Assembly (NCBI RefSeq): GCF_004526345.1
Contig: NZ_CP038213.1
Location: forward strand, 930,001 to 994,000
DNA length: 64,000 nt
Reading direction: 5' to 3'
Source of the DNA: Ornithinimicrobium flavum
GTDB taxonomy: Bacteria; Actinomycetota; Actinomycetes; Actinomycetales; Dermatophilaceae
Below the pieces are notes generated by a model that worked only from the letters and a program-made list of their open reading frames with translations, did no database searches and was not told the origin of the DNA. A program made the position numbers and the translations under genes. Positions 10,794-18,295 of this stretch are shown here, piece after piece; position 1 is the stretch's first letter, and every line of letters begins with the position of its first letter.

Positions 10794-10866
10794 TGCAGCG
10801 TTCCTGCCCGTGCCGTCCGGTGATCCCGGGGAGGATCACACCTGGATAGAGGGCGCAGACGTCCGG

Positions 10867-10893
10867 CAGATACATCCCCGGCCGAGGTATCTG
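10867..10893. promoter_or_regulatory. Palindrome upstream of the protease-sigma-CHAT operon
   Basis: CAGATAC (10867-10873) and its exact complement GTATCTG (10887-10893) are separated by 13 nt, about 80 bp before the protease start. It looks like a dimeric-regulator operator, but no known family motif was recognised. Confidence 0.4.
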
Positions 10894-10974
10894 TCCCTGC
10901 CCTGATCCCCTCCCACGGAGGAACGGAACCCACTAGGCTGCCGACCAGACGGCGGTGCGGGGCGAGGAGTGACC

Positions 10975-12580
10975 ATGGCCGAGTCGGACCAGATGCCGGT
11001 GCTGCACGTCCCCCCGGACGTGCTGCGGCGGTATGCCGCACGGCTCCTCGACCCGGTCACCGCGCCCCCCGACCCCACGCGCAAGGGTTCGGACCCGACG
11101 CGCCGGGGACCCGGGCCCACGGCATACCTGACGACGAGCCTGCTCGTGCGGGGCCTGCCGGGGCCCGAGGTCGATGCCGTCGTCGAGCGCATCCAGGAGG
11201 CGGCCGACCGCGCGGGACGTGCGGTCCGGCTGGTGGTGGACCCGGCTGAGGACGGTCATCTGGCGTGGTTCCGTCGGGTCGGGGAGGCCTACCTGGAGGA
11301 GCTGCAGGGCGCCTACCAGACCCGGGTGCTGCTGGCTGCACCGCGGGACGGAAGCACCACGGGCCTGGACCCCTGGGAGCTGCTGACCCTGGCGCGGGCC
11401 GACGGCCGCGGCCCGCTGGCCGCCGACCTGGAGCACCTCGTCCTGGCAGCCGGCGGAGAGGTGCAGGGCGGGGGCGGCTACTGGGGCGGCCACGGAGGTG
11501 GCGGTGGTTACTGGGGCGGGCACGGAGGTGGCGGCGGCTACTGGGGCGGCCACCACCGGACCTCCGGTGCGGACGACCCGGTGCCCGGGCGGACACCCCT
11601 GGGCGTGAGCCTTCCCGACCCCTCCCGCGACGCGCCGAAGCCTGCCCGCGCGCCCGTCGTGGCGGTCCCGGACACCGGGATCGGGGCGCACCCCTGGTTC
11701 GAGGGTCACCCCGGGGTGCGGGTGACCACCGACCTCGACGGGATGCCGGTCGGCCCCGAGGGCGGTCTCGACCCGGACCCCGAGGGGACGGGTGTGCGCC
11801 ACGACCTCACCGGGGCGCTGGACGCGCTGTCCGGGCACGGCACCTTCATCGCGGGGGTGGTCCGGCAGGCCGCCCCGTCCGCCCGGATCCTCGCGCTGCC
11901 GGTGATGGACTCCGGCGGGGCTGCCTCCGAGCACGACGTCCACCGCACCCTCACGGCGCTGTGGGTCAGCCATGCCCGGGCCCAGGACGAGGGCCGTCAG
12001 GACGACGTCGTGGACGTGCTCTCCGTGTCGATGGGTTTTTACCACCAGGACGGGACGGTCGAGGAGCACCCGGTGCGCTCCCTGATGGACCTCTTCGCCC
12101 GGCGCGGCGTGCTGGTCGTCGCCGCCGCCGGCAACGAGGCGACCCGGTGGCCGCTCTACCCGCGCGGGCTGGGCGGCCGGAGGGGCGGGGCGTCCTGCCA
12201 CCGGCCCGCCGCCCCTGGTCTCCGTGGGCGCCCTCAACCCGGACGGCCGCACGGTCGCCCTCTTCAGCAACGCCGGGTCGTGGGTCACGACCCACCGCCT
12301 CGGGGTGAACGTCGTCAGCACCCTGCCCACCACCTTCCAGGCCGCGGCCCAGGCCGGGTGGGCGACCGAGGTCCCCGAGGGTCATCGACGCGCGACCCTC
12401 GACGCCGACGACCACGCCGGCGGGTTCGCGGTATGGAGCGGCACCAGCTTCGCCGCCCCGCTGCTCGCCGGCCAGCTCGCCGCCCACGTGGCGCGGGTGA
12501 AGGACCAGTCGCCCGACCCGGCGTCCGCGGTGAAGCGCGCCTGGGACGCCCTCGACCGGGAGATCGGATGGTCCTCGTGA
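10975..12580 (+). CDS. Cytosolic S8 (subtilisin-like) serine protease (frameshifted)
   Basis: Subtilase without a signal peptide. Residues 1-165 form an uncharacterised N-terminal domain; a Gly/Tyr/Trp/His repeat follows; then the peptidase domain. The catalytic triad is present: Asp233 in VAVPDTGIG, His288 in SGHGTFIAG, oxyanion Asn387 in AAAGNEAT, and the Ser codon at 12446-12448 in SGTSFAAP. The frame breaks between about 12160 and 12215 and resumes from VSVGALNPDG to the stop at 12580; one extra base or two missing bases explain it. The ATG at 10975 is preached best by GAGGAG just upstream (a GTG at 10969 is in frame). It heads an operon with a sigma factor and a CHAT protein, suggesting a regulated intracellular protease. 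Confidence 0.82.
11467..11553 (+). repeat. In-frame 30-bp tandem repeat encoding YWGGHGGGGG
   Basis: Two 30-bp units plus a partial third, with Tyr codons at 11479, 11509 and 11539. They encode a flexible Gly-rich linker with YWGGH blocks between the N-terminal domain and the subtilase domain. Confidence 0.85.
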
Positions 12581-13182
12581 GGCGGGACGGGGCGGGAGCG
12601 GAGGTAGAGCCGGAGCAGCTGTCGACGGGCCACCTCGCAGGTCGTTGCTTCGCCGCCTACCGGGACGGGGACGCCCATCGGCTGGGGGAGCTGGTCACCC
12701 TGGTGAGCCCCCTGCTGTGGCGCGTCGCCCGGGCCCACGGCTGCGACCCGCACGCCGCGCAGGACGTGGTCCAGGAGGTGTTCCTGCGCCTGGTGGACCG
12801 GGCCACCAGCATCCGCGACCCCGGTGCGGTGCTCGGCTGGCTGGTCGTGGCGACCAAGCGTGAGGCGTGGCGGGTGGCCCGCTCCACGCGGCGGGACGTC
12901 CCCGTGGAGAATGCCGCGTCCGAGCACCTCAGTGCCGAGCCCGGGCCGGAGGCCTCGGCGATCCTCACCGAGCAGCAGCAGCTGCTGTGGTCGGCCGTGA
13001 AGGACCTGAACGAGCGGTGCCAGCAGCTGCTGCGCATCGTGGCCTTCGTGGACCGACCCGACTACGACCAGGTCTCGGCGGCGCTGGGGATGCCCCGCGG
13101 CAGCATCGGCCCGACCCGCGGCCGGTGCCTGGACAAGCTGAGGCGCAGCCTCTCCGACGACCCGAGGTGGGCCCAGGCATGA
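12568..13182 (+). CDS. ECF-like sigma-70 family RNA polymerase sigma factor
   Basis: A 204-residue two-domain sigma factor. Region 2 is visible in HAAQDVVQEVFLRLVDRA and DPGAVLGWLVVATKREAWR (core and -10 binding). Region 4 is the helix-turn-helix near CQQLLRIVAFVDRPDYDQ and ALGMPRGSIGPTRGRCLDK (-35 binding). The ATG at 12568 has GGGAG upstream and overlaps the protease gene; a GTG at 12577 is an alternative. The next gene starts within its stop codon (ATGA). It may direct transcription of its own operon; the small downstream protein is its likely partner (inference). Confidence 0.88.
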   Translation: MVLVRRDGAGAEVEPEQLSTGHLAGRCFAAYRDGDAHRLGELVTLVSPLLWRVARAHGCDPHAAQDVVQEVFLRLVDRATSIRDPGAVLGWLVVATKREAWRVARSTRRDVPVENAASEHLSAEPGPEASAILTEQQQLLWSAVKDLNERCQQLLRIVAFVDRPDYDQVSAALGMPRGSIGPTRGRCLDKLRRSLSDDPRWAQA

Positions 13183-13657
13183 CGACGATCCCAGGTATGC
13201 AGCCCTTCGACGCCACCGACGCGGCGATCCTGCGTGAGCTGCGGGAGATCCAGGCGCGGGTCGACCCGTGCCCCGCCGGGCTGGTCGAGCGCACACCTTC
13301 GCGCTGACCGTGCAGGCCCTGCACGCCGAGGTCGCCGAGCTGACGTCGACGGCCGGCCTGCTGACCCGCGCCGCGGTGGAGGACGCGGAGGAGGCCGTCA
13401 CCGTGACCTTCAGCGCCGAGTCGATGAGCATCATGCTGACGGTGTCCGACGCGGGGCCGGGTCGCGCCCGCATCGACGGCTGGCTGACCGGTGGCGGTGC
13501 CGAGGTCGAGCTGACCGGCCCGGACGGGGCGACGACCCGCACGCTCGCCGACCCCGACGGGCGCTTCGTGCTCGACGCGGTCCCCCGCGGCGCTGCCCGG
13601 CTGCTGGTGCGTCGGGGCCAGGAGCGACCGGTGCTGACCCCCACCTTCGTGCTCTGA
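13179..13657 (+). CDS. Carboxypeptidase-regulatory-like small protein, putative sigma partner (frameshifted)
   Basis: The start ATG overlaps the sigma stop. The N-terminal part (FDATDAAILRELREIQARVD, then CPAGLVER) resembles the short helical segment of anti-sigma-like proteins found beside ECF sigma genes. The C-terminal part (GAEVELTGPDGATTRTLADP, GRFVLDAVP) is a carboxypeptidase-regulatory-like beta-sandwich. One base is missing at about 13292-13295: an extra C restores ERTTFALTV and a protein of about 159 residues. No transmembrane helix is present, so any anti-sigma action would be cytosolic. Confidence 0.65.
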
Positions 13658-13664
13658 GGAGCGG

Positions 13665-16284
13665 ATGAGCAGCAGCCACCGGGTGAGCGAGCTCTTCGAC
13701 CGGGGCCGGCAGGCCAACGCCGCCGGTCGCCCGGGGGAGGGTGAGCGCCTGCTGAGGCGGGCCCTGGCCCAGGTGGAGCGCGACGGGGCGGCGGCCGCCG
13801 GCGCCCTGGACGCGGTCGCCGGTGGCCCGGCCGACGTCGAGGAGGTGAAGGCCCGTCTCCTGCTGTCCCTGAGCACCTCCCTGGTCGAGCGACGGGGGCC
13901 GGGCGCGGCCCTGGACGTGGCCGGGCAGGCGCTGGAGATCGCCCGGGGCCGTCCCGTGGGGATGCGGGGAGCGGGTGCGTTGCAGGCGCTGTGCCGCTCC
14001 CAGTTGGCCATGATCCACGGACGGGCGGGTGACCCGGCAGCCGCCCTGGCCGAGCTCCGGGCCGCCTCCTCGACGGCCCACGAGCTCGGGCCGCGGGAGC
14101 GCGCGACGAACCTCGGTCTGCAGGGCCTGCTGCACCTCGAGCAACCCGATCCGGCCCGGGCGGCCGTGGCCTTCCGGCAGGCTGCCGATCTGGCTGCCGG
14201 CCATGGCCTCCAGCAGCACGAGTTCATGGCGCGCCACAACCTCGGTCTTGCGGCCTACGTGGCCGGCGACCTCAGCCGGGCCCTCACCCTCATGCGGGAG
14301 GCGGACCGGATCCCGGCGGACGTCTCCCGTGCCGTGGCCTGGCACGGTCGCGCCAGGGTGCTCATGGAGGCAGGGCTGGTGGACGAGGCCGCGCAGCTGC
14401 TCGCCCGGGCCGCGGCGGAGGGCGAGCGGGACGGGCAACGCCTGGTCACCGGCCAGGCGCTCATCGACCTCGCGACCTGCCAGCTGATGCTGGGACGCCC
14501 GGAGGCTGCGGTGTCCCTGTCCCGCCAGGCCCGGGACTCGCTGGGCCGTCGCCTCGCGCCCGGTCTGCGCCGCCAGGCGGAGCTCGTCCTCATCAGCGCC
14601 CGACGGCGGACCGGCACCGGTCTCGCGCAGGTCGTGACGGGAGCGCTCGGCCTGGCCGCGCACTTCGACCGGGCGGGGGACGTGGTCGCGGCGGACGTCG
14701 CGAGGGTCGTCGCCGCCGAGGCCCTGGTCGCCCTCGGCCGCCCCGTCGAGGCGGTCGCGACGCTGGGCGCGACGGGACGCACGAGCCGGCTGGTCTCTCT
14801 CACCACCCGGCTGCGGGTCCGGACCGTCCGCATCGCGGCAGCCCACCGCGAGGGCCGGGCAGGGGTGGCGAGACGACACCTGCGTGCGGCTCTGGAGGAC
14901 GTGGAGGAAGCCCTCGGCCAGAGCGCCAGCCTGGACCTGCGCGCCGCGCTGCTCGTCCACACCCAGGAGCTCGCCGACCTCGACCTCGAGGTGGCCGGTG
15001 GCCGGGCCCTGGACCGTCTGGTCGCCGTGGAGCGGTGGCGGGAGGTCGCCAGCCGGACGCCGACGCTGCGCGCCCCCTCCGAGCCCGGGCTGGCGCGCAA
15101 GGTGGCCGAGCTGCGGCAGCTCCGTCAGCAGGCAAGCGAGGACCCCGGTCGGGCGGCGGCACTCGCCGGGCCGGTGAGCCTCCTCGAGCGGGAGGTCGCC
15201 GAAGCCTCGTGGGCCGCGCGGTCCGACGCCGTGCCCGGTCGCCAGGGGCCGGTCACGCGGCAGGGTGCTGGGCTGAGGGAACGGCTGCGGGAGCAGGACT
15301 GCGCGCTCGTCGCCTACTCCGAGTCGAGGGGCCGGGTCGGCGCGGTGGCCGTGGACGGGGCGGGTCGAGATGGGTCGACCTGGGTGACAGCGCCGAGGTC
15401 GCGGAGGTCGCGCGGCGCCTGACCGCCGACCTGGAGGCGCGGGCCCGGGTCGCCGACGGTCCGCTGCGCGGGGCCGTGGAGTCGGCCCTGTCCGGCTCGC
15501 TCGCCCGGCTGGACGACCTGCTCCTGGGGCCCCTGCAGCTCGAGGGCAGGCTCCTCGTGGTCCCGACCCCCACCTTGTCGGCCCTGCCGTGGGGGATGGC
15601 GCCCAGCCGACGGGGGAGGCCCACCACCATCGCGCCCAGCCTGACGTCCTGGGGCAGGGGGGAGACCACGGTGGCCGGTCCCCGGGTCCGGGTCCTCACC
15701 GGTCCGGGACTGCCCCTGGGGGAGGCGAGGTCGCGGCCGTGAGCTCGGCGTGGGACGGAGCCGCCGGCGCCGCTCCGCCCGGCGCCCCTGGGGCGGGTGG
15801 TCACGGGATCCCGCACGCCACGGCGGCCGAGCTCGGCGAGGCACTGGCCGGTCACGACGTGGTGCACGTGGCCGCCCACGGCAGCCACCGGTCCGACAGC
15901 CCGATGTTCTCCTCGCTGTGGCTCGCCGACGGCCCGGTGTCCCTCGCCGATCTCGAGCAGCTCCGGCACGGTGCCTCCCACGTCGTCGTGTCCGCCTGCG
16001 AGGCCGGTCGATCCCGGAGCAGGGGAGGAGCGGCTCTGGGTCTGGCCAGCGGGCTGCTGAGCCTGGGGGCGGCGTCGGTCGTCGCCTCCGTCTGCCGGGT
16101 GCCCGACGAGACGGCGGCCGACCTCATGCCCCGCTACCACGCCCACCTCAGCTCCGGTCTGCCCGTGGACGAGGCCCTGGCCGCTGCCGTCGAGGCCTGC
16201 GACCTCCCCCTGGCGGGGTCCTTCGTGGCGTGGGGGTCGCCGTGGCGACGCCGGGGGAGCGCCACCGGTTGCGGGGGCACCTGA
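13665..16284 (+). CDS. TPR-CHAT (caspase-like) protein (frameshifted)
   Basis: About 870 residues once two breaks are repaired. Residues 1 to about 560 are alpha-helical TPR-like repeats (for example GEGERLLRRALAQVERDG and AAVAFRQAADLAAGHG). The C-terminal part is a CHAT peptidase domain with catalytic His (codon 15877-15879, HVAAHGSH) and Cys (codon 15997-15999, VVVSACEAG). The breaks are at about 15357-15370 (one G added to GGGG gives GGGSRWVDLGD) and 15714-15723 (one C added gives LPPGGGEVAAV). GAGGAG precedes the ATG. CHAT proteases with TPRs, such as the type III-E CRISPR effector partner, act as triggered proteases. With a subtilase and sigma factor in the same operon, a proteolytic stress or defence cascade is plausible but unproven. 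Confidence 0.82.
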
Positions 16285-16307
16285 GCCGCGTCAGAGTGTG
16301 AGCCAGG

Positions 16308-16330
16308 CCACGCCGCGCCTCGCGGCGTGG
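16308..16330 (+). terminator. Hairpin after the CHAT gene
   Basis: Perfect 10-bp stem CCACGCCGCG / CGCGGCGTGG with a 3-nt loop and no T-run, between the CHAT gene and the next ribosome binding site; it separates the two accessory operons. Confidence 0.55.
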
Positions 16331-16357: not shown

Positions 16358-16777
16358 ATGAGCGACGAGACCACCCCCACGGGCCAGGATGAGGGAGATC
16401 TGGGCGACCAGTTCGCTGCAGCCGGAGGCAACGACGGCCGGACCGCCGGAGGCGCCGGTGCGGAGGAGGGTTTCCGGGACAGCCACCTGAGCGAGGACAC
16501 GCTCGGCCAGGCCTTCGAGGACATGGGGGACGCGTCCGAGAGCGGCACCGACCCATCCGGTGACGGTGGCGCTGACGGCGGTGCGGACGGCGGTGCGGAC
16601 CCGACCGGTGACGGGGGCGCTGATGGCGGTGCGGACGGCGGTGCGGACCCGACCGGTGACGGTGGCGCGGACGGTGGCGCGGACGGTGGCGCGGACCCGA
16701 CCGGTGACGGTGGCGCGGACGGCGGTGCGGACCCGACCGGTGACGGTGGCGCCGACGGCGGCGCGAACCCCCTCTGA
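16358..16777 (+). CDS. Acidic Asp/Gly tandem-repeat protein, possible peptide substrate
   Basis: A 139-residue soluble, very acidic protein with AGGAGG 7 nt before its ATG. Residues 1 to about 65 are non-repetitive (ending TLGQAFEDMGDASESG). The rest is five copies of DP(S/T)GDGGADGGA-type units (16, 16, 16, 12 and 12 residues), finishing GGANPL. It has no Cys and no signal peptide. The repeats recall Ca-binding Asp/Gly turns or a multi-core precursor peptide. It lies first in an operon with a second acidic peptide, a JmjC oxygenase and a ferredoxin-like protein, so it could be the modified substrate (inference). No family was recognised. Confidence 0.75.
   Translation: MSDETTPTGQDEGDLGDQFAAAGGNDGRTAGGAGAEEGFRDSHLSEDTLGQAFEDMGDASESGTDPSGDGGADGGADGGADPTGDGGADGGADGGADPTGDGGADGGADGGADPTGDGGADGGADPTGDGGADGGANPL
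16555..16769 (+). repeat. 48/36-bp in-frame tandem repeats
   Basis: Three 48-bp and two 36-bp units, built from 12-bp GGNGCNGAYGGN modules, encode the Asp/Gly repeat. The near-identity of units makes copy number prone to slippage. Confidence 0.85.
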
Positions 16778-16790
16778 CCTGGAGACGACG

Positions 16791-16991
16791 ATGAGCATCA
16801 GCGACGACAACGGTCGGCAGCCCTCCCAGGAGGAGACCGAGCGGACCACCGACATGGAGCGGACCGAGGACCTGGAGGACGCCCGCAGCGCGGACATGGG
16901 GTCGGAGTCCATGGACTCCGCCTTCGACGAGCTCGACGGGGACGGGGTGAACCCGCCCGAGGACGGCGGTGAGGTGGACGGCGGCCGGTGA
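16791..16991 (+). CDS. Small acidic protein coupled to the JmjC oxygenase
   Basis: A 66-residue, highly charged protein with about one third Asp/Glu, no Cys, no transmembrane helix and no signal peptide. It starts 13 nt after the repeat protein, with GGAG before the ATG. Its end DSAFDELDGDGVNPP resembles GQAFEDMGDASES of the repeat protein, hinting at a common ancestor or recognition motif. Its TGA overlaps the GTG of the oxygenase gene, so both are translated together, as is common for a substrate and its modifying enzyme. The function is unknown. Confidence 0.7.
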   Translation: MSISDDNGRQPSQEETERTTDMERTEDLEDARSADMGSESMDSAFDELDGDGVNPPEDGGEVDGGR

Positions 16992-18295
16992 CCGACCGCG
17001 ACCACCTGCGGAGGGCCGGGCGACCGGCCCTTCGTCGTCTGCTCGGGCCGACCTCGCCCGAGACCTTCGCCACCCAGATCTGGGGTCGGACCCTCCACCT
17101 GTCCTCGGCGGCGGACCGGGGAGGTGACCGCTTCGAGGACCTCTTCTCCCTCGACGCGGTCGACGAGCTCGTCTCGGACCGAGGCCTGCGGACGCCCTTC
17201 CTGCGGGTCGCCAGGGACGGGGCGACGTTGCCCGACCGGGCCTTCACCTCCGGTGGCGGCATCGGTGCCGCCATCGCCGACCAGGTGAGCGACGACAAGC
17301 TGCTGCAGCTCTTCGCCGACGGGGCCACCATCGTGCTCCAGGGCCTGCACCGCACCTGGGGGCCGGTGCGGGAGTTCAGCGCCGCGCTGTCGGCCGACCT
17401 CGGGCACCCGGTCCAGGTGAACGGCTACGTCACGCCGCCGCAGAACCAGGGCTTCTCCGACCACTACGACGTGCACGACGTCTTCGTCCTGCAGGTGCAC
17501 GGCGAGAAGCGGTGGTCGCTGCGCGAACCCGTCCTCCCGCACCCGCTGCGGGACCAGCCGTGGGGTGACCGGCAGGACGAGGTGGCCCGCCGGGCCGGGG
17601 AGGAGGCCTACCTGGAGACGACGCTGCGGCCGGGCGACTGCCTCTACCTGCCCCGCGGCTGGATCCACGCCGCCCGCGCCCTGGGCGGGGTGAGCACGCA
17701 CCTGACGATCGGCGTCCACGCCTGGACGCGCCACCACCTGGCCGAGTCGCTGCTCCGCCGCGCCGGGACCGCCCTGAGCGGGCACGACGCGGTGCGCGAG
17801 AGCCTGCCGCTGGGCGTCGACCTGACGGACCCGGCCGGTGCGGCCGACGACGTCGAGCTGGCCCGGGAGGCTCTGCTCCGGGTCATCCGGGAGCTCCCGG
17901 CGGAGGAGGTCGTCCGCGAGCTCAGGGGCCGCGAGCGCGCGGCGCAGCGCCCGGCACCCGTGCCCCCGCTCGCCCAGCTGGCCGCCGCCGACGCCCTGGG
18001 CACTGACACCACCGTGCGGCTGCGCCCGCACCTGATGGCCGACCTCCTCCCGGCACCGGACGGCACCGTCGTCGTCTCCTCGCGCGCCGGTCGGTTCTCC
18101 CTGCCGTCCGCCGCACGTCCCGCCGTCGAGCTGCTGCTGCGGGAGGGATCCGCCCGTGTCACCGACCTGACCGCCGCCGCCGGGCTGGACGAGCAGGCGG
18201 GGCTGGAGCTGGCCCGGACCCTGCTGCGCCGGGGCCTTGCGATGCCCGGGAGCCGGGCGGCCGACGGCGTGGGTGACACTGGGGGACATGGCTGA
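16988..18295 (+). CDS. JmjC/cupin_4 2-oxoglutarate oxygenase with winged-helix tail
   Basis: A 435-residue member of the ribosomal-oxygenase-like JmjC family (YcfD/NO66/MINA53 type), Fe(II) and 2-oxoglutarate dependent protein hydroxylases. The metal ligands are His159 and Asp161 (SDHYDVHDVF) and the distal His227 (PRGWIHAARA). After a helical linker, residues about 338-425 (RLRPHLMADLL, GTVVVSSRAGRFSLP, DLTAAAGLDEQAGLELART) form a beta-hairpin plus winged-helix module. This matches the ROX C-terminal domain and also the layout of PqqD-like peptide-recognition domains. The GTG start overlaps the stop of the acidic peptide gene, suggesting that peptide as substrate. Confidence 0.85.
   Translation: MTDRDHLRRAGRPALRRLLGPTSPETFATQIWGRTLHLSSAADRGGDRFEDLFSLDAVDELVSDRGLRTPFLRVARDGATLPDRAFTSGGGIGAAIADQVSDDKLLQLFADGATIVLQGLHRTWGPVREFSAALSADLGHPVQVNGYVTPPQNQGFSDHYDVHDVFVLQVHGEKRWSLREPVLPHPLRDQPWGDRQDEVARRAGEEAYLETTLRPGDCLYLPRGWIHAARALGGVSTHLTIGVHAWTRHHLAESLLRRAGTALSGHDAVRESLPLGVDLTDPAGAADDVELAREALLRVIRELPAEEVVRELRGRERAAQRPAPVPPLAQLAAADALGTDTTVRLRPHLMADLLPAPDGTVVVSSRAGRFSLPSAARPAVELLLREGSARVTDLTAAAGLDEQAGLELARTLLRRGLAMPGSRAADGVGDTGGHG

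Follow-up and report, generated by a model that had tools for sequence, protein, structure and literature searches.

Conservation of a subtilase, ECF sigma factor and TPR-CHAT protease operon from Ornithinimicrobium flavum and its proposed role as a protease-gated transcription switch

A 64,000-nucleotide stretch of the Ornithinimicrobium flavum genome (NZ_CP038213.1, positions 930,001 to 994,000; here called the window) contains four genes transcribed in one direction (10975-16284), encoding an S8 subtilase, an extracytoplasmic function (ECF) sigma factor, a small protein referred to here as reg, and a protease with tetratricopeptide repeats (TPR) and a CHAT domain, in that order (Table 1). 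The sigma factor was identified by PF04542 (region 2) in the window and by TIGR02937 in the orthologue at locus L033 (6.5e-17, 165 of 165 positions). The CHAT domain matches PF12770 at 4.2e-25, above the cut-off, and contains the His/Cys dyad; reg matches PF13620 under its cut-off. A preliminary description of this DNA had listed the same four products, overlaps of 13 and 4 bp and a 7-nt gap between the genes, and the CHAT Cys codon at 15997, all of which were found as described; it had overlooked the frame changes in three of the genes and said nothing of the repeats in the subtilase. It had also taken the subtilase to lack a signal peptide, and none is evident by eye (no predictor was run).

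Table 1. Features of the operon and its upstream region, in window coordinates
Feature	Position	Strand	Remarks
S8 subtilase (pro-subtilisin like)	10975..12580	+	ATG 10975; one frame change ~12156-12206
S8 catalytic codons	Asp 11671-11673, His 11836-11838, Ser 12446-12448	+	
Tandem peptide repeats x3, GGGGYWGGH type	11467..11553	+	S8 linker, propeptide-like to catalytic domain
ECF-type sigma factor, intact	12568..13182	+	PF04542, 1.6e-10
reg, putative soluble anti-sigma factor (beta domain at the C-terminus)	13179..13657	+	frame change ~13292-13298
reg linker Arg codon, candidate cleavage site	13367..13369	+	
TPR-CHAT protease	13665..16284	+	PF13424, PF12770; frame changes ~15344-15371, ~15715-15817
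CHAT catalytic His codon	15877..15879	+	invariant in 15-sequence alignment A4
CHAT catalytic Cys codon	15997..15999	+	
Candidate ECF promoter GTATCTG-N15-CTCT, directed away from the operon	10848..10873	-	
Inverted repeat CAGATAC-N13-GTATCTG (a pair of -35-like elements, back to back) 5' of the operon	10867..10893		

Relatives were collected by whole-genome searches after a contig scan with the sigma factor of the window returned none. The reg profile (E<=1e-3) matched 32 of 296 genomes sampled across the phylum. The 32 stretches around reg matches, drawn from 31 genomes besides that of the window with one genome contributing twice, contain sigma in 28, CHAT in 21, S8 in 20 and all four genes in 20 cases, with varying gene order and orientation. 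The CHAT profile (E<=1e-60) matched 40 of the same 296 genomes, and the two co-occur: both are present in 29 genomes, reg only in 3, CHAT only in 11 and neither in 253 (Fisher p 8e-28); in one of the reg-only genomes, G279, CHAT is present in pieces. The S8 profile (E<=1e-60) matched 47 of 297 genomes of the order, including the genome of the window (G000), and 45 of the other 46 were inspected (40 newly fetched and 5 obtained earlier, G423 being left out); all 45 have the four genes. Homologues come from Serinicoccus, Ornithinimicrobium, Isoptericola and Occultella, and for S8 also from Amycolatopsis, Nakamurella and others. The conserved neighbourhood on which the preliminary description had made its proposal depend thus holds across relatives and the order, and the operon is real and widespread.

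The alignment of reg divides into a predicted helical N-terminus and a beta domain, joined by a linker that varies in length. Within this linker a single Arg is aligned in 88 of 89 sequences (49 of 49 in a subset of these) and in all 77 homologues of alignment A2, which were chosen from 120 listed. The residue that follows it is Gly (39), Ser (29), Ala (13) or Thr (7) in all 88 sequences, 65 of which have Val in the preceding position. An AlphaFold (AF2) model of reg (mean predicted local distance difference test, pLDDT, 89.4; predicted template modelling score, pTM, 0.59) has two helices followed by seven strands; between them, pLDDT drops under 50 at precisely residues 64-66, which surround R65. 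A conserved residue within a disordered linker is the pattern expected of a protease site.

A second type of sigma-adjacent protein was found in family f30, which has CHAT without a reg match in nine of the 296 genomes. In nine of ten f30 stretches the gene next to sigma encodes a protein that combines an anti-sigma-like N-terminus with a site of the same kind and a beta domain; the remaining stretch (L164) is truncated at the start of its contig. L090 and L091 also carry an f30-type protein. The Arg is invariant in the 10 aligned of 11 such proteins (alignment A6, without L170, which is near-identical to L169). Seven of ten f30-type proteins match the NCBIfam anti-sigma model (best 5.8e-4, under the cut-off), two of ten match Pfam zf-HC2 and one of ten RskA_N, both weakly, and in the PDB RskA (4nqw) is matched at E 0.33. 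For ordinary reg, the best E-value was 0.44 in a PDB profile search and 3e-3 in a Foldseek comparison of the model with the PDB, where the matches were Fn3/CBM-like beta folds and so do not assign a fold to the N-terminal helices. No membrane segment is seen in reg by eye (no predictor was run), and its gene adjoins an ECF sigma gene, a trait of anti-sigma factors, in 28 of the 32 stretches. From the linker Arg, the disordered linker and the anti-sigma-like N-termini of the f30 type we infer that reg is probably a soluble anti-sigma factor, which would bind and inhibit its sigma factor.

The His/Cys motif is kept in 74 of 74 CHAT members with more than 600 matched residues, which bears out the expectation that the CHAT active site would be conserved in homologues. 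Against the PDB, the profile of alignment A4 matches Csx29 chains at 5e-7 to 3.4e-6, with structures 8d9f, 8d9g, 7x8a and 7y83 at 5e-7 to 6e-7; the same profile also matches TPR proteins of many kinds. In type III-E CRISPR systems, as described in PMC10028731, Csx29 cuts Csx30 and thereby relieves the ECF factor CASP-sigma. That system resembles the present one in having a TPR-CHAT protease, a separate inhibitor with a sigma-binding N-terminal domain, an ECF sigma factor and sites in its own locus (PMC10028731); it differs in its inhibitor, Csx30, which at 565 residues is much larger than reg, and in that an S8 partner is present here. RAMP proteins (PF03787) were found in none of seven operon genomes and in 4 of 14 control genomes, so the genes in these seven genomes are not type III CRISPR components. 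Another CHAT protease, HetF of Anabaena, cuts the negative regulator PatU3 (PMC12288457), and HetF is the name-giver of CHAT according to PMC8999054. HetF and PatU3, in contrast to the proteins considered here, do not involve a sigma/anti-sigma pair. We know of no S8 partner for HetF-PatU3. A second, different small CHAT protein is encoded next to an integrase-like open reading frame (ORF) in the genome of L003 (L003:6220-7287, minus strand).

The catalytic residues of S8 (D215, H269 and S482) are invariant in alignment A5 (65 chosen of the 120 homologues listed). The model of a relative's S8 consists of a propeptide-like domain, a disordered segment (152-186) containing the repeat array, and a catalytic domain, and its best Foldseek matches are pro-subtilisins. 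S8 shares with these the propeptide-like and catalytic domains and differs from them in the homogeneous, species-specific aromatic repeats between the two and in the lack of a secretion signal by eye. A tandem array was detected in 72 of the 120 S8 homologues listed (188 found), with 50 different units such as GGGLYWGGQ, PYWMSM, NPFTRS, GYGSGV and PFIETN; at the same score, shuffled controls gave 0 of 2,400. Adjacent units differ by 374 silent and 3 non-silent codon changes in 1,157 comparisons (48 of 51 genes), the count of 3 being biased downward because the array ends were set by amino-acid identity, and units in 47 genes show at least one silent difference. A neutral simulation produced 8,864 non-silent and 991 silent changes in 470 runs, 48 of which still yielded a detected array; it is a rough control because its silent changes stay far below the real ones, many runs having evidently stopped at the mutation cap. 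The unit is thus uniform within a gene, yet changes between species. At L095 two S8-CHAT-reg sets stand in tandem with different units (PFTSGG x7 and HPMYDG x4).

Among 68 four-gene loci, 16 fell under the repeat score and one was not matched by the motif search; L040, L045, L122-L124 and L132, all under the score, have two diverged copies by eye. Over 51 loci, repeat similarity follows the identity of the partner TPR with a partial rank correlation of 0.39 given all other modules, compared with 0.22 for the S8 catalytic domain, 0.14 for the S8 pro-domain, 0.125 for CHAT and about -0.18 for reg and sigma. Permutation tests were passed by TPR, S8 catalytic domain, S8 pro-domain and CHAT, so that only the ranking by size favours TPR, and the partial Mantel statistics (14 loci; 51 loci) are liberal, the loci being related. 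Tentatively, the repeats may be a peptide code, in which each S8 carries identical aromatic peptides of its own that the TPR of the partner CHAT would read, either as multivalent docking sites or as an intracellular signal that is cut loose and activates CHAT; code and reader would co-diversify and insulate the switch of each lineage. Units with an NPF/NPY or TNP core (e.g. NPFSRT, NPYGRT, PFIETN) occur at L096, L147-L150, L152, L153, L155-L158 and L160, and those of other loci have a GYG/GWG or PYW core, so that only a small number of core types appear to be shared across the order.

Upstream of the first genes (within 450 bp), the pattern GTATCW-N16-CTCY occurs 75 times, at a spacing of 17; single-base shuffles gave 0.00, and other spacings from 8 to 25 gave at most 6 matches each. 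The strict form GTATCWG-N15-CTCY is present in 46 of 85 loci, on both strands in several, and also 5' of the unlinked sigma-reg pairs L088, L103 and L107. A search of 12 genomes gave 57 matches to the strict pattern (51 of these places inspected) and 10 to a reversed control, and many of the single sites are probably there by chance. The only strict match in the genome of the window is the promoter candidate of Table 1, which faces outward; the inward copy, facing the operon, is one base off the strict spacing. The inverted repeat formed by the two occurs at one place per genome in five of seven genomes of the genus (0 for the reversed-pattern control). It was also considered as an operator for another regulator, which was rejected: since CTCY follows at a constant distance on each strand, a pair of divergent ECF promoters is the likelier reading. 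The motif is likely an autoregulatory promoter, and a TAGGCT box (10934-10939) that by eye is shared by several relatives could serve as a housekeeping -10 element.

Starting from the computed gene set, the near-invariant Arg, the kinship of CHAT with Csx29, the catalytic residues, the silent divergence of the repeats and the promoter motif, we propose, with a probability of roughly 0.6, that reg, the ECF sigma factor, CHAT and S8 form a protease-gated transcription switch. The N-terminal helices of reg would bind the sigma factor and hold it inactive. The TPR-CHAT protease would receive a signal at its TPR part, probably by way of the S8 zymogen, whose linker repeats may dock on the TPR superhelix; active CHAT would cut reg after the linker Arg, parting the sigma-binding helices from the beta domain, and sigma would be released. 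Free sigma would then drive GTATCWG-N15-CTCY promoters, that of its own operon as positive feedback, and in addition could act on a divergent NAL1-like gene in several genera and on trypsin-like, AMIN-like, lipoprotein-like and CHAT genes in relatives. The preliminary description had offered two routes. The near-invariant linker Arg and the anti-sigma-like f30 N-termini make cleavage of the small protein by CHAT, which would free sigma, the best supported; cleavage of the subtilase linker by CHAT is less likely, that linker being a hypervariable repeat array in most members.

Several observations weigh against the proposed switch. The reg of L143 is the one exception without the aligned Arg, the anti-sigma matches are all below curated cut-offs (those of the f30 type being sub-threshold only), ordinary reg gives no anti-sigma domain match, and three of 12 stretches around CHAT in reg-negative genomes (L164, at the contig start, L172 and L173) contain no reg or anti-sigma-like ORF. 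The strict promoter motif was not found in 39 of 85 loci. According to PMC10028731, no single residue of Csx30 is required for it to be cut, so that a preference for Arg would not be inherited from Csx29. Three of the genes in the present record are frame-shifted and the switch may therefore not work in it. Ten genomes have reg stretches without CHAT; a full-length CHAT lies elsewhere in eight of these, with S8 adjoining it in six of the eight, and G306 and G273 have weak CHAT matches only. This arrangement suggests that the natural pairs are sigma-reg and S8-CHAT. The protease that cuts reg could, moreover, be S8 or a host protease.

That S8 instead of CHAT cuts reg at the linker Arg, with CHAT activating S8 through its propeptide or repeat linker, appears unlikely. 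It would fit the six genomes in which S8 stands beside CHAT and sigma-reg elsewhere, the pro-subtilisin likeness of S8 and the position of the repeats at the junction of propeptide and catalytic domain, and kexin-type S8 enzymes favour basic P1 residues; but G001, G013 and G208 keep sigma-reg-CHAT and the reg Arg, and have no S8 of this kind at E<=1e-15.

The gene set corresponds to the published context of sigma group ECF54, for which control by proteolysis without an anti-sigma factor was proposed (PMC8999054, section 3.3, which gives no experiment on ECF54). Under that proposal sigma itself would be the substrate and be kept low by proteolysis, which we regard as very improbable here, since it offers no explanation for reg, which accompanies sigma more regularly than any other neighbour, or for the linker Arg of reg, and is at odds with the anti-sigma-like N-termini. 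The ECF54 context agrees with the present one in combining an ECF sigma factor with carboxypeptidase, subtilase and CHAT proteins, and these neighbours were found here. It differs in that the sole carboxypeptidase trait in the product of the "carboxypeptidase" gene is a carboxypeptidase-regulatory-like beta domain, preceded by a helical N-terminus (anti-sigma-like in one family), with a candidate cleavage site between the two parts, and the repeats and promoter are added. The statement in the preliminary description that no function had been described for such sets was therefore nearly right, the ECF54 context and the proteolysis proposal having already been published (PMC8999054).

Genes that recur next to the promoter motif give some indication of a regulon under the proposed switch. 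A divergent NAL1-like gene (NAL1 being a trypsin-like protease) stands by the motif at L032, L034, L092, L133, L138 and L140, with Pfam NAL1_N under its cut-off. A trypsin-like gene follows the motif in four genomes (PF00089 just above the cut-off in the one tested), AMIN-like genes in four, lipoprotein-like genes in five and a small protein in two, and sites also precede a CHAT gene (once) and a nuclease/phosphatase-family gene; eight target proteins were run against Pfam and the remaining ones matched by eye. CHAT proteases are often effectors, and the trypsin-like, CHAT and nuclease/phosphatase-family targets would suit a regulated-suicide or defence module, whose sigma regulon is a proteolytic arsenal and which kills the cell when CHAT or S8 senses phage or damage. 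We consider this doubtful, because PADLOC gave weak matches only and no system (no defence-island survey was made) and because the other recurrent targets are AMIN-like and lipoprotein-like genes. The searched text of a conflict-systems paper (PMC7159879) contains neither "CHAT" nor "sigma factor" and has one passage with "subtilisin".

In the record of the window the reading frame is broken at four points, which affect three of the operon's genes (one in S8, one in reg and two in CHAT; sigma is intact). In relatives from the genus every gene is in a single frame, except at L043, whose genome is 74% complete. Orthologues near the operon are also broken, namely a folC-type (Mur ligase) gene at ~6870, mreB at ~20051 and mreC at ~21014. 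Eight relative stretches supplied 41 proteins with a match in the window, of which 12 are split (several of them naming the same gene), compared with none in four control stretches with 28, 30, 30 and 38 matches. When ten 20-kb stretches from elsewhere in this genome were searched along with the window, 0 of 13 proteins of a relative were split there, and ORFs in those stretches are slightly shorter than those of the relative (median 312 vs 322.5 residues; 23 vs 31 ORFs of at least 500 residues). Decay of a dead operon in this genome would account for four breaks across three genes and for their apparent rarity elsewhere (0 of 13); it is nonetheless quite unlikely, given that the folC-type, mreB and mreC genes nearby are split too, that near-identical strains have intact copies of the two genes looked up (S8, P0129, 97% identity; reg, P0048, 94-97%) and that other genomes keep the operon. 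The simplest reading is a local run of sequencing or assembly indels.

Downstream of the operon, the region 16358-16774, which precedes a cupin-like gene named by eye (16988-18295), encodes an acidic protein whose sequence consists of a 48-bp repeat (DPTGDGGADGGADGG type). A second small acidic ORF lies between the two, and the arrangement resembles a precursor-plus-enzyme layout.

Searches of the open-licence literature returned no direct study of the gene set besides PMC8999054. As far as these searches go, the neighbourhood is known, and what is new is the interpretation of reg as an anti-sigma factor, together with the cut site, the repeats and the promoter. Proteolysis of the membrane anti-sigma factors RseA and RsiW likewise frees an ECF sigma factor by a protease cut; the proposed switch differs in using a caspase-like protease and one internal linker site, in a reg that shows no membrane segment by eye. 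If the proposal is true, a CRISPR-free relative of the Csx29-Csx30-sigma circuit would exist in many actinobacteria, with its substrate, cut site and promoter named. ECF54, the control of which has so far only been proposed, would become a switch of transcription of the caspase-like kind, and S8, with its repeat array, would be a rare enzyme bearing multiple copies of a peptide that changes fast yet is uniform within each array.

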